Of a stretch of 64,000 nucleotides of DNA, positions 3,901 through 36,298 are shown piece by piece. Numbering within the stretch: the first letter of the stretch is position 1; each line of letters begins with the position of its first letter. Where the stretch lies: contig JACEEZ010017909.1 in NCBI GenBank assembly GCA_016584305.1, positions 42,599 through 106,598 on the forward strand, given 5' to 3'. The notes beneath the pieces are model-generated. The model searched no databases. It was not told where the DNA came from and saw only the letters and a program-made list of their open reading frames with translations. This DNA comes from Chionoecetes opilio. Taxonomy: Eukaryota > Arthropoda > Malacostraca > Decapoda > Majidae. Both the position numbers and the translations under genes were made by a program.

Positions 3901-6900
3901 AACTTAAGGCATCATAAGACTGATTTCTGTGTTAGTAGCAAATCTGCAACTAATACTTAATTTCAGATTGTGGGAGACACTCGCGTGAGCACCCACTTCA
4001 ACGGTATCAGTGTGGCGAGCTTTGCCCTGCTGGCCGGCAACCACGTGTTCACCCGCAGCGTGACCTTCACCTCTGACCTGGTGAGGCACTCTCGGCACTG
4101 CCTTGGCAGGGGTGGCATATATACAATGTATTGATGTCTTCTAATAGTAGTTTTAAAAGAATCTTTCGGTTTTTACTTTACTTTGGTATTCAATAAATTT
4201 AAAGGAGTTTGCCAGTGGTACAAATAGTGAGTTTTACAGTATTTAGTATTTAGATAGAATTTCTTCAAAGAAATCTAATATAATTTTCCAGTATTAAAGT
4301 TTTGTGAAAGGGAATAATTAGGTTCATCAATCTTTATAAATTATTAAAATGTTATTTCTTTTCAACAATGCGATACTTTGTTGGTTCAGGTTGTGGAGGG
4401 TGACGTCCACGTGGCCACCACTGTGAACGGCATCAACCTTGGCGCGCTGTCTGCAGTGTTGGCGCTGACAGACTCCCGGACCATGACGGTGAGCCAGGAC
4501 ATCACCCTGCACGGGCCCTCCTTCCTGGGCGGCCTGCACGTGGCCACTGGCGGCAGCACTGTGGTGGGCGGCGTGAACCTGCAGGACGTGGTCTTGAGTG
4601 ACGTGGATGCAGTCATCACAGGTGGGCCGGGGAGGGGCACAGGAAGTGAGGGTTGTAGTAAAGTCTTGTTAGGTTTTTCAATGGATTTAGTTTTGAGAGG
4701 TAAAGTTGGTGTGATATCTTTGCCTCCAGGAATGCCAAGATGGTGTACAGGTCATGGATTTCATAGTTATTGTTACTTTTAATGCCTGATCTTTTATTTT
4801 GAGTATTGACGCAGGAATCAATCAATCATTGGGGGCATACGCCGCGGGGCGCGTCGCCTCGCCCACCCTAGACTCCACTCCCGGTGGTCACAATGCGCGA
4901 GTTTCCATGCAGGATTCTTTCCCATACCAAGCAGCTATCGACAAGAAACTTTAACTTGCCCCAGCCACGAGCCTTGTGGGCGCCCCCTTGGCCTCCTCCA
5001 TGCCGGATTGTCTCTTACAGATACAACCCGATGGGAAGGATCGGTTTCAGGGTAGCGTGCCACATGCCCATATAGCCGAAGTTGGCGCTGACGTACTATG
5101 CAGGTAATAGGCCTCGATTCAGTCTCACGGTGCAATCGCTGATTTGACTTTCTAGCTGACTTTTGACTTTTGACGATTTGACTGAATCATCCCAGCGATA
5201 CTCCATGATTCTGCGAAGACACTTATTACCAAAGGCATTGATTCGTCTCTTAAAGTCACTATTTAGTGTCCATGTCTCACAACCATAGAGTAAGACGGGG
5301 ATCACAAGCGACTTGAAGATCCGGATCTTTGTCCTTCTGCACAGGTACCGACAACTCCAAATACTCCCGCTGAGAGAGTCCATAACACCGTGGGCTATGC
5401 CAATCCGTCTTAATACTTCTTGACGTGAACCACAGTCATTATGGACTGCGCTACAAAGGTATGTAAAACTTTCCAAGATCTCAATGTCCTCGCCACACGC
5501 ATGAACAGACTGTACTGCTTCATCTAGTAAGTCTCCAAACACCTGGACCTTGGTCTTGAGCCAGGAGACCTCAAGTCCCAAAGGCTTTGCCTCCTCGTGC
5601 AGCGCCTCGAGAGCCATCACCAGGACTTCCAGCGACTCTGCAAAGATTACTGCATCATCGGCAAAAACAAGATCAGTGATCTTGGTGTTGCCGACGGATG
5701 CTCCACAATCACTTTGATCTACAACCTTGTCCAATACCCAGTCCATACAAGCGTTGAAAAGTGATGGGGCAAGGACGCACCCTTGCCTCACTCCTGTATT
5801 CACAGGAAAGAAGCTGGATACACCTGCCCCACATTTCACAGCACTCTGTCCCAGAATACAGACCAGTTATCAAACCAATAGTCTTTGCAGGACTCTTAAG
5901 TCGCAGAAGATCCCAGAGTGACTCACTGACTCAGTCAGTGAGCTGACTGTGTTTCGGGGATGCTTGCAGCCTATGTTTATCTCAAGAAGGCGTTTGACGC
6001 AGGAATGATATAATTATAATCCAATTCATCTCATTCTTGTTAAGAGATTCAGATGTAGGGAAAGTTCTTCGGGCTAGTAAATAGGGCAGAACAAGAAGTA
6101 ACTGATTCAAGCTGGGAAAGTGTAGATTTATGAAGTAAATAGGGTAAAACTGATTCACAAATAGGGTGGTAAATTATTGGAATAGACTAGGTTAGTGCAG
6201 TCAATAGGAAGCTTTAAAAGGAGGCTAGATTAATTCATGGATGGGGATGAAAGGTGGATGTAGGTAGTGCTGAAGTAACGGGAACTACCACTTGTAGGTC
6301 TCTGTTTTTAGCTTCCTATTTTCTGTTATTTTATGGATGGGATAACTTAAGATTAAATACTCGTGATTTAAATCATTTATAATATACCATTGACAAATTT
6401 CACAAGACACCGGGTAAGCATCTAATCCTTCAATATTCTGTACCCAGGCGTGAAGACCTTCTCGTCCGTGCGTGTGGAGTCTGTGACTGCCGGCGGCGTG
6501 GTGGTGGTGCAGGGCGGCCTGGTGGACGGCGTGCTGCTGGAAGACCTCTTCTTCGGAAACTCTCTCAGGAAGTCCGGTAACACTTTGCCTGGGTTGACAA
6601 ACTGGTAGACTTCAGCCTTAATATTCCTTGATATAACCAGAATATCTAATAATTAAAGTCTTCCTTGACTCCTTCACGCCCAGATGTTTCCTTTGCTAAA
6701 AAAAAAAAATTGTGAGCCATAGAATTAAGAAGTCTTAATATACCAAATTAGTTAGTAGATAAGGTTACTAAGCTGGTAATATCTAAAATATTACTTTTAT
6801 TCACTAAATCTTCTAATGGTAGCCAGATTACAATGCAATTTACGTTAAGAGTCAAGGGGTTAAACCCGTGCCTCTGCCCCGTGCCCAGGAGCTGCCGTGC

Positions 6901-20373: not shown

Positions 20374-20855
20374 TCCCGGTGACAACCCACACACTAGCCT
20401 AATTTATCATTTCTGCCATTAAAATAATAGCTTAGTTAGTGTTCGCCATTTGTCTGAGGCGTTGGTGTAGAAAAATGGGCCCGAGTGATGTGTGAGAGTA
20501 CATTTGAACGGCCCACCACCACTGCTCCACACAATGGTTGACCTTCCACCTCCACCACCGCCCGGCTTCCTGACAAGTTTACACACCTATATAAGGCCAT
20601 CTGGACCTGATTTTACCTTAATTATGACACGTGTGCATTCACAAGGTATGCATGTTACTCTCGGTTGTGTTGAAAACTCACCTGTAATGGTCTGGGAAGA
20701 AATAGAATGGAATAAGTGCACAGCGGGATGGAGGTGGGATGTACAAGCCACTGCATGGTGAACGCAGTCAGCTGACTCAAACCTCCACTCGTTGCGTTGT
20801 CCTTGCTTACCGCACCTCGATGCAACGGGTCGACAAAATTTCTTGCATATGGGCC

Positions 20856-22053
20856 TCTGTCCTCATCCGCGGCCACGCCCTCAGCTGAGAGGTTATACCC
20901 GCAGAAGCTCACACTAGGCGCGGCGACCACAAACGTACCCTTGTTAAGTGTGATCCCGTACACTTGCGACATCTGGTGAATACGTTGGAGGTGTGTGGGG
21001 AGGTCGTCGTCGAAGAGGAGAATGTCGTCAACCACCTTAACGCAGTTATCTACACCCTGCAGGGCCAGGTCGCCGCGGAGACAGTAAGTGTCACCGGTAG
21101 CCGAGAAACCCATGGGACCTCTGCAGTGTTGAAAGCGGCCGTATGGCGTGATAAATGTTGTCAGGTGTTGGTCGTCCTCGTGTAGTTCCAACTGCCAGTA
21201 CCCGCACAAGGTTTCCGCTGTGGTGAAAAAACGCGCTGACGGGTTGACACTGCGGACAGCGGTGAATGGAGTTGGGGCAGGATGTGTTGGGCGGGCCACT
21301 TGAGAGTGAGTTTCGTCAAGTCAACCGTGATTCTCACGCCTTTATCCTTAGCCACGACGACTAGCGGGTGACACCACTCTGAAAGGTCGTCACAGGGAGG
21401 CTTGATGATTCCCTGACGTGTCATCGAGTCAAGTTCCTCCTGAACTTGACGCTGGAAAGCGAAGGGAACCTGCCTCGGTGTGTGAATGGCGAATGGTACG
21501 GCTCCCTCCTTCACGTGAATCCTCATGGGTTTGCCCACCATGGGTTTCAGAGGAGACGTTTTGAGATTCGCCTTGGAGAGTAACACGTCCGAAAACTCGC
21601 GCAGAAAGTGCGCCCGTGCAGCTGACGGGGACGTGGTAGGAGGGAGTCATCTCAGCGCTTCTGTTGACGTGCTTGACCTCCAATAGTGGCTTCGGGAAGG
21701 CAGGTGAAATGATAGCCAGCTCCATGCAGTGGCCGTAGGACAGGAGGGGCGTTTGAATACCCTCGTGCACCTGTATCTTGGCGGTACAAGATTTCCCGTG
21801 GAGCCCTTTAAAGTAGCGTAAAAACATCCCACAGCAGGTGTTATTACTGACCATCCGCTGTCAGCGTAGTAGTGGACGGTAGAGATTGTAGGTGCTGAGG
21901 GGATGTGAAGCATTTGCAGGTGTCTCTTCCCGATAACAGTGACGTCGGCCCCTTGTCTGGTAAATCTGGAGCCTGGAAGTGGACTCGCCGTGCACCAGGT
22001 GAACGCAGACCGGGGTGGGAGTCAGGGGCACTGGAAGGTGAACATCTGTTAGG
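20856..22053 (-). pseudogene. Protease and reverse transcriptase of the old LTR retrotransposon
   Basis: The retropepsin remnant near 21930-21970 reads RQGADVTVIG, so the usual DTG triad is lost. RT follows in several frames: QEELDSMTRQGIIKPP and CHPLVVVAKDKG (21300-21500), then GYWQLELHEDDQHLTTFI, GPMGFSATGD and the catalytic box VVDDILLFDDD (20870-21200). The RT then continues as AADEDR, is cut at 20855 by the nested 1-kb element, and resumes at 19808 with SAIRNFATPVNLTD. It is degraded by several frameshifts. Confidence 0.85.
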
Positions 22054-22056
22054 CTA

Positions 22057-22385
22057 TAGTACAGCTTCTTAGAAAAATATATTGTTCAAATTGGGATAAA
22101 AGCAACAGACTTGGTGTACTTATAATATGATATACACTAAATAATATAGGGGGTTGACCCCAACAAAATTTGCATGATAAGAGGACGTGGCACCAAAAAA
22201 CAAAAGGCCGCCATAAAATACCAAAAAATTCTTTAGCGACCTAGATATGCTTCTAATATATTTTTTTGAGTGGTTTTAAAATACTAGACTATGGTTGTGG
22301 ACATGCCCAATCCATTAAGATCTATAGCTGAATGATTGGAAGCATCTCAAAATTTGAAATTTTCAAAATGGCGTCCATTTTGCTT
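22057..22385 (+). repeat. Left terminal inverted repeat of the 5.9-kb transposon
   Basis: Pairs with 27615-27947. Includes a perfect palindrome CAAAATGGCGTCCATTTTG at 22364-22382. Confidence 0.8.
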
Positions 22386-22521
22386 TAAATAAAGCATTTA
22401 GAAGCAAAAAAAAAGCACAAAACGCTGTAAAATATCTCATCATTTATATGATACTCCCTTGTAGTTTGTCTGCAAAAAACTTTTGCAAATGAAATACACT
22501 ATATGGGAATAGAACCAAAAT

Positions 22522-25500
22522 TTATTCAATGTGATATTCCGCTTTTGTCCAGTGATACTGATGCAAATTATTCTTGCAGTGCACATGTTGACCACATTTC
22601 GAAGTGACATACGATCGAGTATCTGCAGTCCATTTACTGTACACAGCCACCTGGCAGACACACAGTTCAGTGCAGCTAAGGTCGTTCCTCTTGCACTTGC
22701 AGAGTCCCCTGCATGCTTTCTTACACCCACAGCGAATAAGTTCATGACAACCCCGCGATGCCTCTGGTAGCGCTGTCCAGTGCGGATGCCACCATGTTCT
22801 GTCATAGTCCATCCCATTCACCTGGATTTGGCAGAAACGGGGAATGAGGTTCAGAGTCTGGCCCCATATGTGTCCAACCTTTGGTATGTAGCTCGTTGCA
22901 GTGTTCCAACAGTGCTGCCCAGTGGAGGAATGTTTTTTAGTGATCTTGACCCTGGCGCAAAAAGATTTTTCCTTGCTTCGTTCACAGTGCCCTAGCCCGC
23001 ATGTTCTGCTGTATAGAAGTACGACGTATTTCTCGATGGTTTGCAGATCCGTCAAGTCGAGGCTATTTTGGTGCTTTGGCAAGTTTTCCGAGAGTGTCTG
23101 TCAGAGAATCAAAGACATTCCAACTTTCCAGCATGTTTTTTTTCCCCACGTCCAGCAAACGATGAAGTATTTGTCACATCCTGTTAGGCAATGGAAAGTG
23201 GCAAAGCTGCTGCCTTCCTGCGCCCAAGATTTGATGCAACTGTGTGGGCCCCTATATACCGAAATGTCTTCCTGTCCCAAAATGCGACCACAGCTCTGCT
23301 ATTTCAGATGGAGAACTACTGCAACCGCTAGTACCAAATACGTCAGGTTTGTTGTACGTTTTGTAACTGCCCCTATATCCTTGTGCCACACAGTCAGTAC
23401 ATGTATCATTACCGAGTGTCCGCCTCCTCGTGTGTGCAGGGTTCTAGATGTGATGTGTTTCTTATCAGCCTGTGTGAATTTAAACATGTGTATCAAATGT
23501 TGACACTAAGTGCTTTCCCCTCGGGTGCTATTTCTTCTGCGATGTACTCCGCCAGAAGGAGGACAAGCTCTTCTTTGTTTGCGTCAACTTGCAGGAACGC
23601 TGCCAGTTGGTTGGAAGTGGTGTGCTTGCCAGAACTCTTCTGCGCTGTCCAGTTCCTCTGCTTTCCCGTGTGCTCTCCTTGAGACTGTTTTTGATGAAAA
23701 CGGTCCAAAACTACATCTAGTCTTTGAACCTTTTGAAGACGTCGTCGGATGTAAGGCATAAAAACACACTTGGCATATTCATTGAAGTTGGTCTTGACAC
23801 CTTTAGGTGGCAACATGTGTACAATTGCAGCACCGTCCAGCACCTCAGCTTCTACAACTGGGTCAAATCAGGAACAACTTTGTCTGTTTGGGTTTGGTTT
23901 GAAGGCATGGCACCAGACCCGACTTTGAGCAGTGTCTTAGGTTTCCCATGTTCGACAATGATGAAGGGCATGCCGGGTTTTTCGTGGGCGAAGAACTCGG
24001 TGAGGCTTCCACTCCTCGACTGGCACGAAATGTACAGCTGGGAGAATAAAGCACAGTTTCCCTTGAGTGAAGAAACCCTGAAACTTATTCTGCTGGGGGA
24101 CGTGTTTCTTCGGTGTTCCAAAGAGTGCCAGATTGTTCTTCGTATGGTGTCGGAAAGTGGTTTCTCGCAGAGGACCAGTCTTTCCTCTGCAAATGTGCTG
24201 TCCCTCTTCTGGCCAATATTTTTACTGTTTGTAGAGTCTGAGCCACGGAGTGGTCCATCACTAATTTGGTGTCGAGCGTGACCAGAACGTTCCCGTCATC
24301 AATGAAGGGTGCCCATGCCCTGCATGATTCCTTGCAGCTCCACACGTCTCGTTTGAACCCTTTGCACGCCTAGTGATTGCTCGTGATGCTTTCCTTTAGC
24401 CGCTGTCGTGATGTCATCAAACTCATTTATCAGCCTTGCGACTTCCGAACCTGCATCCATCCCCCCTGAGAGGGCAGCCGGATTTTCAGTAAACCCCACT
24501 GCACCACCATCTCCCTTTATGAACTCGTTTAGCTTTTCATGGTTTGGTCAAGGGCAATTGACGAGAAGGTGTTTTGTGTTTTCTGTACGGTGAAGTGCCC
24601 CTGTGCAAACTGACGCTATACACTAGGATGTGTGTCTTTCAAACTGGAGCATGTCAATGACATGGACTAGCAGCCACCTTGAGTAGTGCGTACGGTCCAT
24701 GGCAAACAACCATGGGATCAACTTTCCCAGCGTTTCTACATAGAGGTCGAAGTTGCCTTCTCGCAACGATTTCACAAACTGCAGACCAAGAGTTCAAGTG
24801 ATATGTCATACTCCAGTACAAGAACTGTGGGTGAAGTTCTGACTTTCGTCTTGCTCCATTCGCCATATGGAAGCACATCATCTTCGTTGGTGGATCCATC
24901 AGTGTACAGTGTGTAGGCACTTTGCTTCAAAAAGACTGAGAGTAGCAGCTGCTACTTGGTGTGCCCATCTTGTTCGTGTTACATGACCACCGCCCATCAT
25001 GGATTGTGCTCGGCCTGGTGTTGTGATATTTGCTTCCACCAGAGGGAAATCGACCATCCCCTGCCTTCAAGCCAGTAAACCCAGCATCTGATACAATGCC
25101 CTCTCAATGTGTAAGCCTCCCAGAATAACGACAAATTGGTTCTCTCCAAATGAATCAGGCCACCGCCACTGTATGCTTCGTGAGTGCATATAGTGGTTGG
25201 TCCACGGTAATAACAGGAATCTGTCCTGGGTTGAGATGCTGTATGCCTGTCGACCGGGGCATTGAATGACGTACCATAGCTACAGTGTGGGTCTTTTCGT
25301 GGAAAGAGCGGCAATAATGCACTGATGCATTTTGGGCGGACAGGTGCTGTTACTTTTGATGCGTGATAAGCAGCCCATGACATGTTTCATCTGCTTCCGT
25401 CTGTGCTTGTCGAAGGTGATTGTGTACATTATCTATCCCTGCATCTTCTTCGTTAAAATAGCGCCCAAAAACATCAGTGCCGGGACGTACCTCACCTTGT

Positions 25501-26738
25501 ACTTGTGGCACGTGATACTCAGTACCATCTAGACCACTGGTGGAACTTCTGTGTACACTAATGGAAAGGGGCGTAGCTTTGTAGTGCTTTGGGAGGTGTG
25601 GTCATATTTTGCTGTCAATCCTATCTCTGCTCCATGTGTGGTCACCGTTGGGTGTTTTAGTCAGAGATATAGGTGTTCCATGGAAACTATCTTTAGAAGA
25701 TCTGGAACTTGTTTGTGATCGATGTTGTCCATGGCCCCCCTCGTGAAAAATCCAGACTTGAGGTGTGGAGGGCAGACTACATTTTGTCATGGTAGAAGTT
25801 GGTTTCTCGATTAGCCAACTCAGTTTGATATGCTTAGGAGTCGATTGTAGCCAATGCAGAGACCGTACGGATGCCCGATTGTCAATCAGTTCCCTGTTTC
25901 TTGTATGTTTCATGAAGCATGAGGCTCAGGTATATTTGGGAAATGGAGTCTCTCTTTCCCCTCGTATGACGAACAGGTTTCGACGGCCTGTCGACATGTC
26001 TTCTTGGGTGCTTGACACTGTTGAACATCATCAATTGAGAAATTGTGAGTCCAGCAGGGCTTGTTGTCATTCTGGGTTTGGTCGTGTATGTTGGCTCCCT
26101 CTAAGACCCTATTTACCAAGGCTTTCAGATTTCCTGGGACTGTTTCATCTTGGCATTTCTCCGTAAAGGACCCACTAAAACTGTAGTCCATCTGGAACAT
26201 ATCCCGTCTCACTATTTCTGCAGCCTTTGCTAGAATCACTGCGTCTGACTCCATGTGTTGACTGCATGCAATCTTTATACTTGCACCAACGTCTTCTCAA
26301 ACATCAGCAACACATTCTTCCCCCTGAATGTGCTCTCAGGCCTGGAACCATCCTTATCAGTGATCTTTAAGTCGTGTGCTATTGGGCGAACATTTATGAC
26401 ACCATCCATTGTGATAGCCTGACTGTGTACATTTTAGGAGATCGGCAAGGCGAAATACTGCGCACGAATCAGGATCTCTGGCCTCTTCTATGAAAGTGAC
26501 CAACTCTGCTAGAAAAGTGCTTTTGCTCAGCCTCATGGGTCTCTTCATTAGTTGAGCACTCGCGTGCATGACGTTCACGGTTGTAGAGAGCAGCCAAACA
26601 CTTTGCGTGATATTGAGCGTCTTGTGCCACCAAGTCTCTTGTTCCCAGTTTGACCAAAATGCCCTGTCTTGAAGGAGTGTTGCTGGGATTCTCACCCCTT
26701 TTGGGCATATCTGGTGTCGAGGCATCAAAGCAGTCCAT
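22522..26738 (-). pseudogene. Decayed transposon protein: XPG-like region plus C-terminal CXC cysteine cluster
   Basis: Fragments in shifting frames follow one colinear order. N-terminal KLGTRDLVAQDAQYHAKCLA (26469-26738). ETVPGNLKALVNRVLEGANI (about 26000-26150). FDLYVETLGKLIPWLFAMDR (about 24670-24760). ENPAALSGGMDAGSEVARLI (24299-24499). ALFSQLYISCQSRSGSLTEF (about 24000-24060). LDGAAIVHMLPPKGVKT with a long basic segment (23493-23843). A degenerate nuclease-like stretch ending LTGCD (about 23180-23460). The C-terminal CGCKKACRGLCKCKRNDLSC...CVC cluster (about 22640-22730). I recognise this as the abundant uncharacterised protein family of cnidarians, arthropods and molluscs. Many frameshifts make it non-functional. 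Confidence 0.7.
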
Positions 26739-27614
26739 CTTTCCCTCCTAGTTCGCCACAGAAAAAACATTTCATTGCTTTGGTGTACGTTGACAAGTCC
26801 TATACTGGTTCTTGTTTTTTATCGGATGCAGTCCTCTGCTTGATCGCTCGATTTCCGCTTCCCTTTCTATGGCCAAGTGGTGGAATCAAACCTGTTGTAG
26901 CAGGTTTTGTGCCACCAAGCCTTTTGTTTTCTAATGCTCGCTGTATACCTTCACCTTCGTCAAGTCGTTTTTGGGTCTACGTCCAATGGAATTTCGCCCA
27001 GGTTTCAAATTCAAAAAATTGGAATTGAACGTTTCGTAACCTGAAATGTCTTTTCTTGTGGACTTAGCAGGGCATCTGGCTGGTTCGTCTCATCAATTTG
27101 ACAGATGATGCATTTAGACCAATCTGTTGGGTTACTGTAGTTTTCCCCCGACAATGCCCCTTCATCACCTCCAGTCACAATTTGACAACTTTAGACATAC
27201 TGTTCATTAAATTTAAAAAGTTAGCAGAACACTGGTGTTGCGTTGTATTTTTCAGTTTACATTATTTTTCTACATCTTGTGTCGTCACCTGCAAGTAGAA
27301 GAAGATTTGGCTATTAAAGTACATATCGTCGTGTAGCCTATATAGTACATGTATGCAAGCAAACATCGTATCAAAATTGCAATGTTACATTTATGCATGG
27401 GTGACAGTATTTAGGAAATAGGTCCGTCCTCATTTAGTACATCAAGTTTCATGAAACACCAGCTAGAATACCCTACACTATTCATTGATGTTATTGTGTC
27501 TGTATGGTACATTTTAAGTGTGATTATTATCATACATATCATGTAAAAACACTTTCTTTTAGCATGTGTAAAGTGGCATGTCAAATTTAGCAGTCGAAAT
27601 TGCGTCATTTCGTG

Positions 27615-27947
27615 CAAAATGGGCGCCATTTTGAAAATGTTTATATTGGATATTCATCCAATCATGTAGATATATATCTTAATGGATTGGGTATGTCCAT
27701 AAACTATAGGCTAGCATTTTAAAACACTCAAAAACCTAAATTAGAAGCAGAGCAAAGTCCCAAAGTATATTTTTCGGTATTTCATTGCGGCCATTTTGTT
27801 TTTAACGCCACACCCCCTTAACGGATCCATTTTGTTGGGGTCCACCTCTTATATTGTTTAGTATATCCCATATTATAATTATACCAAGTGTGTTGCTTTT
27901 ATCACAATTTGAACAATCGATCTGAAATGATGTGCTAAGCTGTACTA
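27615..27947 (-). repeat. Right terminal inverted repeat of the 5.9-kb transposon
   Basis: Complement of the left repeat with scattered mismatches and indels. Carries the matching palindrome CAAAATGGGCGCCATTTTG at 27615-27633. Confidence 0.8.
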
Positions 27948-28025
27948 CTACGACAGTTGCTGTATTTACGCCGTGAGGTGGGTGATGCGCGACCAATGTT
28001 TAACGCGCCACCCTGGCCATCGTGG

Positions 28026-28803
28026 CTAGGCGTGTTGCGGCAGAACCTGTCGTATAGTAGTGGCCAGTCCTGAAGGTTGACTCTTGAAATGGGCCTGTAG
28101 GGTGTCTAAGACCTCTGTCACAGTCAAGGAAGTGTCAGGTGCGATCCCTAGGCTATGTTCTAGGATCCTTTGTACGTCCAGTGACACAACCATCCGCAGC
28201 TGGATGAGTTGCTTATGTCGTGGCAGCCTCTGTAAATCCAGCATGGTAGAGTAATCTTCCCACAGACGACGCCACTGCCGGAAAACTTGGAAGGAAGAAT
28301 CAGCCAATAACGTCGGTGGACTGTGGGCCACATGCTTGCCTGTTGAAGTCGCGACGGTGGGCGTGGCAGCCACAGGAGAAGCGGCGAGTGGGGCGGTGGT
28401 TGTCGCGGGAGTCGCGACCGTGGGTAATTCGCCGCTCGCACCGGCATCGAGGGGGGGGTGTAGGTAAAGGAATGTCCCGCGCGCTGGCCGCAGACTGCAG
28501 TCTGTGCAAAGGAGACAAACGTGTGACAAGAACTTGGAACCGAGAATCCTCCTCCTTTCTCCTGGCCTCGTTGTCACGTAATCGTCTCTCCTCATCACGC
28601 TGGCACCTCTCCTCTTCATCCTGGATGCGTCGGTTATCAGCTGATAACCGGGACTCCTTCAGATAGCGAATCAAACTTGATATCGCGTCCCCCGGTAGCG
28701 GGGAGGAATGTGTCGTGTTATGTGGTTCAAAGGGTGGGGAAGCGATTTCCCCTTCGTCATCCTCCGAGCCGCTTGCCGCGGGTGACAAAACGGGGAATGA
28801 CAT
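28026..28803 (-). pseudogene. gag of the old LTR retrotransposon (frameshifted)
   Basis: An ATG at 28803 (MSFPVLSPAASGSEDDEGE) opens an acidic then strongly charged coiled-coil-like region (ESRLSADNRRIQDEEERC). The frame then breaks near a G8 run at about 28450. Another frame continues with a capsid-like segment (FRQWRRLWEDYSTMLDLQ... LQAHFKSQPSG) ending at 28026. No zinc knuckle is seen before the transposon insertion at 27950. Role: structural Gag, now non-functional. Confidence 0.75.
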
Positions 28804-32577: not shown

Positions 32578-35500
32578 TTAGACTCGAGGTCGTAAATTAT
32601 AGCCGTGCATGGCGTTAGTGGTGATTGGGTTAGTGGAAGTGCTTGGAGGTAGGTAAGCACAATCAGCAAAGGCCGGGTCCCGTTGGGCTTTGGTCTTCTT
32701 CAACCTATCACTATGAATTATTTGGACAGTTTGAAGAAGGGGATCCAATACTTCAAACTTATTGCCATGCTTCTCACCAACAACAAGGCGCGGGCCCAAG
32801 AATTTCGGCGCCAACTTGGAATTCCTACTTGGACTTTGAACCATTACGGTATCCCCTTTTCTTATTGTTATAGGAACCGCACGCTTATGTTGTTGTGCCA
32901 TCATCTCGGCACGAGAAGCTTGTAGCCTTTCCTTGACCTTTTTGTGTATATTAGTAAAGACATGCAAATGCTGATCCAGATAGCTATCTATGTTATACAC
33001 AGGTTTAGTGGGCTTGGCCAATAGGTCATATGGCATCCGTTTATCCGCACCATAAAGTATGTAGTTAGGAGATTTGCCCGTGGACTCGCAAACTGAACTA
33101 TTAATGCAAGCCGTCACGTAGGGTAACCAATCTTCCCAATCGTCGTGCAAACTGTTTACAACAGGTCTCAACGCGTCCAGGATCTTCCTGTTAACGCGCT
33201 CCGCCAGCCCATTCGAGCTTGGATGGTATGCGACCGTGAAAGTCTGCTTAATATTGTACACTGTACAAATCTCCATAAGCAATGCATTACGGAACTCTGC
33301 GCCATTATCACTGAGCAATACTCTTGGTGTGAAATAAGGGCAGAAAAGATGACTTATTAATGCATGAGCTACAGTCGCAGCCGTTTTATTCTTCACCGGT
33401 GCAAGGACTACAAACCTTGAAAAGTGATCTACACACACCAGAAGGTATTGTGAGCCGTGATGACTCTTGGGTAACTGTAGAAGATCTATTGCAACTACGT
33501 CCCATGGTTGCTCAGGTGATGGGTATTCTAATATAGGAGCGGGTCCTGGAGTCGTCCCTTTGTTTTGGGCACAAGAAACACACCTGGCAACATATTCTTC
33601 AATGTCCACACGCATCGTGGGCCAAAAATACACACGCCTCGCGGCTGCTAGGGTACGATTACGTCCCGGATGTCCAGCCATGGGCACATCGTGCACAATT
33701 TTGAGTACCGTCGGAACAAAAACGTCAGGTATAACAAATTGTTCCACTGGGTCTCTTTTCTGTGGCCAATGTCGGCACAGTACCTTGTCATTCGACAGGA
33801 AAAATTGTGAGTAATTCACCGATAATGCTGGTAAGGAGGTCTCATCGCCCGACTCTAAGGCATAGATGACCTTCCCCCACATTTCAAGTTTACGTTGTTC
33901 GACGCCCAATTCATAGAGTGAAAAATTTGGCACGGGATTTTCCCCCGTGACCGCACCCACCACCGGAACGTTTCGCGATAACGCGTCCGCTACCACATTT
34001 GCACGTCCGGGCAAATATTTGAAGGTTGGGTTAAACTCTTGGATCGTCAGATACCATCGTGCAAGCCTACCGGATAAATTCTTACCCTTGAATAACTCAG
34101 TAACGGCTGCATGGTCGGTATAGACAGTTATTGGATAGCCAAAGATAACGTCTTTAAAATGTTTGAGAGCCCAAATTACTCCGAGGGTCTCTTGAAGTGT
34201 AACGGAATAATTTACTTCCGCCGGGATAAGAACTCTGCTCGCATACGCGATTACACGGTTCTTCCCTCTTTCGTCTTTTTGCATCAGTACTGCCCCAAGT
34301 CCCTTAGCCGAAGCGTCTGTACATAGCTCAAATGGAGCTGTAAAATCTGGGAATGCCAAGACAGGAGCGTTCACGAGTGTAAGTTTTAACTCTTCGAAGC
34401 TTTGTTCCTGAGGAGCATCCCAGTGAAATGAGACATCTTTTCTTAACAGCTGGTTTAGGGGAGATGCCTTTCTGGCGAAATCTTTGATAAAGGGGCGGTA
34501 AAAGCCGGCTAGTCCCAAAAAGGATCTAACATTCTCAACACTCTGGAGTTGAGGAAAGTTTTTGACGGCCAATACCTTATCGTCCATGGTGTGGAGTCCC
34601 TCCCGGTCGACAGTATGGCCTAAGAAGCTAATCTTAGCTTTCAAAAATTCACACTTGGTGAACTTGGTTTTGAGACCAGCTGACAACAGTCGCTGCAAAA
34701 CTGATTCCAAAGTTTTAAAGTGAGACTCATGGTCTTTGCTAGCAATTATAATATCGTCCAGGTATGCGAACACGGAGTTCCCTATCATACCGGCAAAAAT
34801 TGTATTTATCATTCTCTGAAAAGTAAGCGGCGCGGATTTCAAGCCAAACGGCATCCGAAGCCATTCGTAGTGACCTCTCGGCGTACTGAACGCCGTAACC
34901 TCTCTAGAGGATTCTGCCATGGGTACCTGCCAGTACCCCGACAAAAGGTCCAAACTACTGAAAATTGTATTACCCGGTCCTAACGACATGAGCAGATCTT
35001 TTAGGACTGGTAATAGATACCTGTCTTCTTCTGAGACCTGATTCACTCGCCGAAAGTCAATAACTGGGCGAAAAGTTCCATCCTTTTTCGGGACAAGGAA
35101 CAAAGGACTGTTCCAGGGGGAGCAGGAGTGTTGAATAACTCCTTGCTCTAACATTTCCTCTACATGTGTTTCTACCACAGCCCGTTGGCTATGAGGTAGC
35201 CTGTAAGCAGGTATGTAGACAGGTTTTGTCCCTGGACTGAGTTTAATGTGATGCTCCGTTGTATCGGTAGCACCAAGAGCTTCACTGGGGAGTGTTATGA
35301 CATCTTGGTACTGACCCAAGAGTTCCAAGAGCGAGTGCTTTAACTCCGGGTAGTCCACGACGTTGACAAGCGAACTGAGGGTTGGCACCAGACTCTGCTC
35401 GATGTCAACGGCGGACTTCTGCACCGTAGCAACACAAGCAGTAGGTAACTCCAATGGCTCAGGTACCACCTTTCGATCATACACCAACCCTTTCCCAAGG

Positions 35501-35757
35501 AAAACTCCATGTTTAACTGGCACTGGTCCACCCGTGGTGTTAACAACCAATGCTGATGTGACATGTCCTGCGCCGACAGTGCTAGGTGTCGCCTCTACGG
35601 CCAATCGTTTTACTTTACTGGGGCCATCGAGACATACTTCACTGTCTATAGGTGCATCAGGAACCGCCACTGGAACACGTATCGCCATGCGATCGGGGAT
35701 GTCGTGGTCACCGATAATCGTGGCCTTCACAACTTTCCAACCCGCTGTAAGATTCAC
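32578..35757 (-). CDS. pol: pol: reverse transcriptase, RNase H and integrase
   Basis: Single open frame of 1059 codons. Residues ~180-360 are RT, with FLVPKKDGTFRPVIDFR, SSLDLLSGYWQ, and the catalytic FAYLDDIIIAS at about 331-340. Residues ~470-600 are RNase H (FELCTDASAKGLGAVL, VYTDHAA, ADALSRN). Integrase has an HHCC zinc finger (H689/H696 region, C726, C729) and catalytic D758, D817, E853, a D-58-D-35-E spacing. A GPY/F-like module (KFLGPRLVV) follows, and the end is GYNLRPRV, a common Ty3/gypsy C-terminus. All catalytic residues are present, so it is probably active. The frame stays open upstream of 35757 into the protease overlap, so the reported start is arbitrary; expression likely needs a frameshift from the protease frame. 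Confidence 0.95.
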   Translation of the reverse strand: MNLTAGWKVVKATIIGDHDIPDRMAIRVPVAVPDAPIDSEVCLDGPSKVKRLAVEATPSTVGAGHVTSALVVNTTGGPVPVKHGVFLGKGLVYDRKVVPEPLELPTACVATVQKSAVDIEQSLVPTLSSLVNVVDYPELKHSLLELLGQYQDVITLPSEALGATDTTEHHIKLSPGTKPVYIPAYRLPHSQRAVVETHVEEMLEQGVIQHSCSPWNSPLFLVPKKDGTFRPVIDFRRVNQVSEEDRYLLPVLKDLLMSLGPGNTIFSSLDLLSGYWQVPMAESSREVTAFSTPRGHYEWLRMPFGLKSAPLTFQRMINTIFAGMIGNSVFAYLDDIIIASKDHESHFKTLESVLQRLLSAGLKTKFTKCEFLKAKISFLGHTVDREGLHTMDDKVLAVKNFPQLQSVENVRSFLGLAGFYRPFIKDFARKASPLNQLLRKDVSFHWDAPQEQSFEELKLTLVNAPVLAFPDFTAPFELCTDASAKGLGAVLMQKDERGKNRVIAYASRVLIPAEVNYSVTLQETLGVIWALKHFKDVIFGYPITVYTDHAAVTELFKGKNLSGRLARWYLTIQEFNPTFKYLPGRANVVADALSRNVPVVGAVTGENPVPNFSLYELGVEQRKLEMWGKVIYALESGDETSLPALSVNYSQFFLSNDKVLCRHWPQKRDPVEQFVIPDVFVPTVLKIVHDVPMAGHPGRNRTLAAARRVYFWPTMRVDIEEYVARCVSCAQNKGTTPGPAPILEYPSPEQPWDVVAIDLLQLPKSHHGSQYLLVCVDHFSRFVVLAPVKNKTAATVAHALISHLFCPYFTPRVLLSDNGAEFRNALLMEICTVYNIKQTFTVAYHPSSNGLAERVNRKILDALRPVVNSLHDDWEDWLPYVTACINSSVCESTGKSPNYILYGADKRMPYDLLAKPTKPVYNIDSYLDQHLHVFTNIHKKVKERLQASRAEMMAQQHKRAVPITIRKGDTVMVQSPSRNSKLAPKFLGPRLVVGEKHGNKFEVLDPLLQTVQIIHSDRLKKTKAQRDPAFADCAYLPPSTSTNPITTNAMHGYNLRPRV

Positions 35758-35809
35758 GCGAGCGTTAGAGACATGAATTGAGGGAACTACACCAGTCGGT
35801 GGCCCTCGC

Positions 35810-36298
35810 TTATCGCCTCTCTTCCCTCTGAGTGATTTGACATTTAGGGGAGTCAGAGACAGGAGAATCCATCGCCTTTAACTGCTTCCCTTTAAATGTT
35901 ATTAAATTTAAGTTGGGATCTATCCCAATTCGATTAGACTTCATCGTAGCTAAACCCAACAGCCCGTCTACAGGGAGCTGAAAGTTGGATGCTACATAGA
36001 ACTCCATATGAACCGGAGGAACCCTTTTGTTCAATGTAATAGGTAAGATCACTGTTCCCTTTATTTTTAAAGATGAACCTGTGACCCCCTTCACATTCAA
36101 ATAACTCTGGCGTAACGGCCACCGGCCACCACGTGCACTCCTCTTTAGAGCCTGATACGACTCTTCACAGAGTACATTTACAGTAGCTCCAGTGTCCACA
36201 GCCAGGGAAAGGTTTTGATGGCTTACCTTCGTGGGTATTGCCATGATGTTTGTTTGTTGGCAGGCAGCCATTATATTGTGGTAAATCGACAAATCCAC
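35810..36298 (-). CDS. Retropepsin-type aspartic protease region
   Basis: Contains LAVDTGATVNVLCEESYQ, the DTGA active-site motif, and a later GLLGLATMKSNRIG matching the second conserved Gly-rich strand. It cleaves the polyprotein. The frame equals that of the C-terminal gag ORF and differs from pol by one base; it terminates about 50 nt inside the overlapping open pol frame. The start shown is not a true initiation site, because the frame is open further upstream. Confidence 0.85.
   Translation of the reverse strand: MDLSIYHNIMAACQQTNIMAIPTKVSHQNLSLAVDTGATVNVLCEESYQALKRSARGGRWPLRQSYLNVKGVTGSSLKIKGTVILPITLNKRVPPVHMEFYVASNFQLPVDGLLGLATMKSNRIGIDPNLNLITFKGKQLKAMDSPVSDSPKCQITQREERR

Follow-up and report, generated by a model that had tools for sequence, protein, structure and literature searches.

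The Academ superfamily of DNA transposons is said to go back to Kapitonov and Jurka (2010), and its two lineages, AcademX and AcademH, were reportedly defined by Kojima (2020). The defining traits of AcademX are an XPG-type nuclease and a Cys8 cluster. Passages of one study ascribe 3- or 4-bp target-site duplications to AcademX and 9- or 10-bp duplications to AcademH, and tie them to the nuclease and the helicase, respectively (PMC10045372). Passages of further reports describe 100 curated Academ elements from bivalves, found with DDE profiles and with a mean length of 5,565 bp (PMC10294476), Academ in a whitefly (PMC9143410) and a clam (PMC8905726), AcademH-type helicases in fungi (PMC10799480) and a human fossil fragment matching Academ-1_NV (PMC9004415).

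Here, we describe a transposon in a 64,000-nt stretch of the genome of the decapod Chionoecetes opilio (contig JACEEZ010017909.1, positions 42,599 to 106,598, forward strand; hereafter, the window). With a probability of roughly 0.93, we consider this element to be a dead, non-autonomous copy from the nuclease-bearing lineage of the Academ superfamily, AcademX, with the anatomy and working set out below. Going by the passages that describe AcademX, the two share terminal inverted repeats (TIRs), a 3–4-bp duplication, a nuclease instead of a helicase, a length of 5–6 kb and one large protein. The XPG type of the nuclease and the Cys cluster also match, and we found no difference from this lineage in the features tested. 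AcademH belongs to the same superfamily and is expected to have a DDE-type core; it differs, according to the same passages, by its helicase and 9–10-bp duplications (PMC10045372), as compared with the 3–4 bp of our element. At E ≤ 0.1, 32 full-length relatives of the encoded protein matched nine Pfam families, none of which is a helicase. Since the features with a clear outcome all fit AcademX, and the element differs from AcademH, we regard it as a further AcademX member. A first-pass annotation, made from the sequence by a model, had suggested Academ on the basis of a nuclease-like region, the Cys8 cluster and the 3-bp duplication; this assignment by features is supported, as the predicted nuclease fold, the Cys cluster and duplications of 3–4 bp all hold.

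Ends, copies and target-site duplications

The element is delimited by the following features, its outer limits having been set by the other copies in the genome:

22057..27947, gene on the minus strand: AcademX-like DNA transposon, decayed copy (inverted ends and copy comparison)
22057..22400, plus strand: left TIR, TAGTACAGCTT... (end-to-end alignment, other copies)
27602..27947, minus strand: right TIR (end-to-end alignment, other copies)
22054..22056, no strand: target-site duplication CTA, left
27948..27950, no strand: target-site duplication CTA, right

The coordinates proposed in the first-pass annotation proved exact, and the CTA duplication and inverted ends of about 330 bp that it had read were likewise recovered. 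In the window copy, 149 nt match in inverted register with 80% identity and 105 nt with 79%; across ten copies, the left and right arms are 63–78% identical over 392–401 aligned positions, and the likeness tails off around column 345. An end length of some 345 bp and a divergence of roughly one quarter between the left and the right end are a trait of the window family itself. Near-palindromic CAAAATGGCxxCCAT blocks, found in 22057-22400 and in the right counterpart, are among the parts best conserved between left and right and are possible candidates for protein-binding sites.

Searching the 1.94-Gb genome with the left end returned at least 40 matches. The fetched loci carry two end types, with left-type ends 87–95% and right-type ends 91–95% identical to the respective window end (except L036, at 81%). 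Eight of the nine other two-ended copies examined have the termini TAGT...ACTA, as in the window, and the ninth, L039, has one altered end. The ends compared read TAGTACAG, with altered first bases in six (L013, which is L039, L020, L025, L026, L036 and L038).

Exact 3-bp duplications flank six of the first eight two-ended copies, as compared with agreement in 44 of 1,520 displaced 3-mer pairs. Adding L047 (CTT), an internally deleted derivative of 1,987 bp, and L048 (AAC), both read off their flanks, brings the count to 8 of 10; the flanks of L045 show no repeat, and L039 sits in a (TC)n run, where a duplication is undecidable. The duplicated triplets vary (CTA, TAA, AAA, CCA, GGG, TAA, CTT and AAC), and no strict target sequence was found in 20 distinct flanks; the number of insertions behind them is smaller, as both sides of a single copy were included in some cases.

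Eight copies are 94.6–98.2% identical in pairwise comparisons, with the window copy among the most diverged. The latter is dead: its longest coding-strand open frame spans 192 amino acids and it contains many stops relative to a related protein, matching the single decayed large protein annotated initially. An unbroken gene was found in none of nine full-length copies of the window family, with frames of 766 amino acids retained in L042 and 777 amino acids in L043. L043 measures 7,253 bp, about 1 kb or more beyond the other copies, and its seemingly extra part holds a 131-residue frame (6437-6829, minus strand) that resembles a host protein and is perhaps a gene copy inserted into the element. 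The same insertion as in the window occurs on a second contig (L010, G000:C16025), where the left flank matches window 20604-22056 over 1,460 bp at 97.3% identity; this locus is either a duplicate or an allele of the one in the window.

A protein search of the same genome, in which the best 58 of 11,391 first-look candidates were scored, revealed several diverged subfamilies, and two copies were fetched for each of three, picked for unbroken or long frames. Boundaries in families 2 and 4 come from copy-to-copy alignment, trimmed or shifted by at most 2 bp to a TAGT/ACTA terminus, and those in family 3 from a scan within eight bases for inverted termini plus a duplication, which gave one solution per copy. 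The members of family 2 (L052 and L053; frame 45.8% identical to the 777-residue L043 frame) are 99.8% identical to each other over the whole element of 5,407 bp, and each has an open frame that runs for 1,523 codons from stop to stop; their inverted ends span about 185 bp at 76–77% identity, with termini TAGTCTAGGCGA and duplications of 3 bp (CTG) and 4 bp (CTCC). Family 3 (L054 and L055; 49.5% identity to the L043 frame) ends in TAGTACTGCAGA and is flanked by TTA and CTA duplications; the L054 gene is split over two frames (947 and 354 amino acids) and L055 is internally deleted. The ends of family 4 (L056 and L057; 44.9%) are short and read TAGTGGGGGGCCTA: L056 is flanked by GAA/GAA and holds a 1,434-codon frame without part of the first zinc cluster, and L057 is broken, with no 3- or 4-bp repeat at its flanks. 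Pooling the four families, 13 of 16 two-ended copies show a duplication (12 of 3 bp and one of 4 bp), the others being L045 and L057 without one and the undecidable L039. Intact members without TIRs had been named initially as evidence against a transposon; in this genome, both copies with unbroken frames have TIRs and duplications.

Anatomy of the encoded protein

All motifs quoted in the first-pass annotation were located, every one of them on the minus strand, as are the remaining features of the protein:

27092..27115, minus: zinc cluster 1, first half, KCIICQ (N-terminal)
26900-26917, minus: zinc cluster 1, second half, WWHKTC (N-terminal)
26580..26769, minus: N-terminal zinc cluster 2, CFFCGE (26752-26769) to YHAKC (in 26580-26618)
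25674..25732, minus: MDNID (25718-25732) to DSFHGT (25674-25691), presumed first catalytic Asp strand and hairpin (low-confidence model)
25182..25205, minus: VDQPLYAL, presumed second catalytic Asp
24695-24754, minus: motif NFDLYVETLGKLIPWLFAMD
24524..24544, minus: NHEKLNE, presumed catalytic Glu (HEQxN in relatives)
24374-24391, minus: motif KHHEQS
23173..23843, minus: core of the XPG/FEN-like nuclease domain, which extends beyond on both sides
23811-23843, minus: VLDGAAIVHML(PP), LDG motif
23709-23723, minus: RLDVV
23412-23429, minus: EEADTR
23173-23187, minus: LTGCD, TGCD motif
22654..22731, minus: C-terminal Cys cluster (the Cys8 annotated initially), motif CGCKKACRGLCKCKRNDLSCTELCVC

Using the 777-residue L043 frame as a query (E ≤ 1e-3; 7,997 candidates scored), we obtained at least 499 proteins (cluster representatives), including proteins from a limpet, a tunicate (Ciona), a sea anemone and hake. 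When a long relative's N-terminal part (620 residues) served as the query, at least 249 proteins were returned among 7,986 candidates scored, with examples from an oyster, a priapulid (Priapulus) and a coral (Oculina). The relatives listed with an organism name are labeled hypothetical, uncharacterised, 'AWS domain-containing' or 'Tesmin/TSO1-like CXC domain-containing'. Two of them, P0060 and P0189, come from the limpet Patella caerulea; passages of a survey place Academ, among molluscs, almost only in bivalves (PMC10294476). In another, P0091 (Actinostola), a DDE_Tnp_4 fragment and a family member are joined within one predicted gene, which probably represents nested transposons annotated together. 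For conservation, we considered 62 full-length relatives (of the 235 proteins listed from both searches; 1,480–1,600 amino acids, median 1,524; numbering as in P0121), which consist of one protein of about 1,520 residues in a single open frame. Both N-terminal zinc clusters are of the CCHC type. The C, C, H and C positions of zinc cluster 1 are kept in 59–62 of these 62 relatives and zinc cluster 2 in all of them. The C-terminal cluster noted initially is likewise conserved, with nine cysteines, each present in 57–61 relatives. A winged-helix-like stretch is possible as well.

The nuclease-like region of the first-pass annotation turned out to be predicted as an XPG/FEN-type domain: a structure search with the model of residues 510-875 recovered the 5'-nuclease fold of FEN1, EXO1 and XPG. 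Across all 62 relatives, the ten positions presumed to form the active site are invariant; in the decayed window copy, the DTDV motif found no match. Likeness to the FEN1/EXO1/XPG/GEN1/XRN superfamily lies in the predicted fold and in the order of conserved carboxylates, Lys and Arg, with only 8–16% sequence identity in the structural matches, and the element's nuclease differs from this superfamily in being fused to a transposase-like core. The carboxylates were assigned by order, rather than by a computed residue alignment, to what we take to be their FEN1 counterparts. Among 32 full-length relatives, the Pfam XPG model found no match and 5_3_exonuc matched once, at E 0.068.

Upstream and within the same chain, D491, D494, D667 and E888 are conserved in 62, 61, 61 and 62 of the 62 relatives, and the conservation and spacing of MDNID, DSFHGT, VDQPLYAL and NHEKLNE fit a D, D, E core that contains a large helical insert. 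In the low-confidence model of the N-terminal part, a hairpin lies at the first Asp and a strand immediately ahead of the second. Because no match in the structural library backs the model of this region, we infer its identity as a DDE transposase core from sequence. Pfam DUF6589 was matched at E ≤ 0.1 by 20 of 46 and 10 of 32 relatives (best E 1.1e-8), less than half of the family members scanned. The likeness covers the Glu-bearing region; in P0015, the match lies at residues 211-340, falls below the curated cut-off and covers only model positions 275-401 of 410. Since this weak match concerns the Glu region of a transposon family, DUF6589 could represent a portion of an Academ-type transposase. 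The word DUF6589 was absent from the papers listed for the names DUF6589, PF20231 or Academ.

Proposed working and rival explanations

In the mechanism that we propose, the zinc clusters, the winged-helix-like stretch and the Cys cluster would bind the long ends, and the DDE core would cut the 3' ends and join them to the target at points separated by 3 (sometimes 4) bp. Branched 5' ends would be processed by the flap-nuclease domain, which would either detach the element from the donor or trim the 5' flaps that remain after joining. We tentatively suggest, at somewhat longer odds than even, that AcademX unites two nucleases in one chain, a DDE core acting on the 3' ends plus a flap endonuclease that is active on the 5' ends, with DUF6589 as the Glu-bearing part of the transposase. 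What the sequences show is the anatomy, the ends, the duplications, the predicted nuclease fold and the conserved presumed active site; the putative division of labour would, in this respect, make the AcademX chain a eukaryotic counterpart of the Tn7 TnsB/TnsA pair. If true, it would explain the 3–4-bp duplications of AcademX versus the 9–10-bp duplications of helicase-bearing AcademH, and it is because of this contrast in length that 5'-end processing is worth testing.

Three other explanations were weighed. The nuclease activity is a prediction, and the duplication length by itself requires no second nuclease; the domain could be a catalytically dead scaffold, with the DDE core alone acting in transposition. 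We consider this improbable, as a scaffold would hardly keep ten presumed active-site positions identical in 62 of 62 relatives. The element could also belong to a different or new TIR superfamily that recruited an XPG-like nuclease independently of Academ: the Academ assignment was made by features, and Pfam gives only weak matches, to DUF6589 (20/46 and 10/32). To this scenario we give very little credence, given that an XPG-type nuclease, a Cys cluster, a 3–4-bp duplication, a length of 5–6 kb and one large protein jointly describe AcademX and that independent recruitment is less simple.

The relatives might also be host genes, such as Tesmin/TSO1-like or AWS-domain proteins, one of which was merely captured by a TIR element; some indeed bear such names (P0060, P0098), and of the 61 full-length relatives with a contig, nine are found on contigs longer than 20 kb. 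In C. opilio, however, TIRs enclose the window family and each of the three further families, and the pair of copies whose frames are unbroken share 99.8% identity across the entire 5.4-kb element. Moreover, the other 52 relatives lie on contigs of 4.9–7.4 kb (median 5,826.5 bp; none at 7.5–20 kb), as expected of collapsed elements: high-copy elements would give such short contigs, to which short assemblies alone could contribute. We regard a host-gene origin as barely credible.

Surroundings and wider meaning

The flanks of the element (20658-22056 and 27948-28658) look like parts of a decayed long terminal repeat (LTR) retrotransposon, within which the transposon seems to sit. A reverse-transcriptase match at 20658-21320 is below the Pfam cut-off (21.6 versus 29.6 bits), and gag-like and protease-like stretches were read by eye. 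Elsewhere in the window, 32581-35877 (minus strand) holds an unbroken pol frame of 1,099 amino acids with reverse transcriptase, RNase H, H2C2 and integrase domains, which is Gypsy-like by domain order, and 5099-5866 (minus strand) a reverse transcriptase fragment that by eye resembles a long interspersed nuclear element and has a sub-threshold DUF6451 match.

The window family is probably represented in Repbase already, which makes the discovery value smaller than hoped initially. The natural unbroken copies in this genome allow the role of a flap-nuclease domain inside a transposase to be studied. If the relatives elsewhere are transposon proteins, as they are in C. opilio, they should be removed from host gene counts and excluded from analyses of gene families and horizontal transfer.
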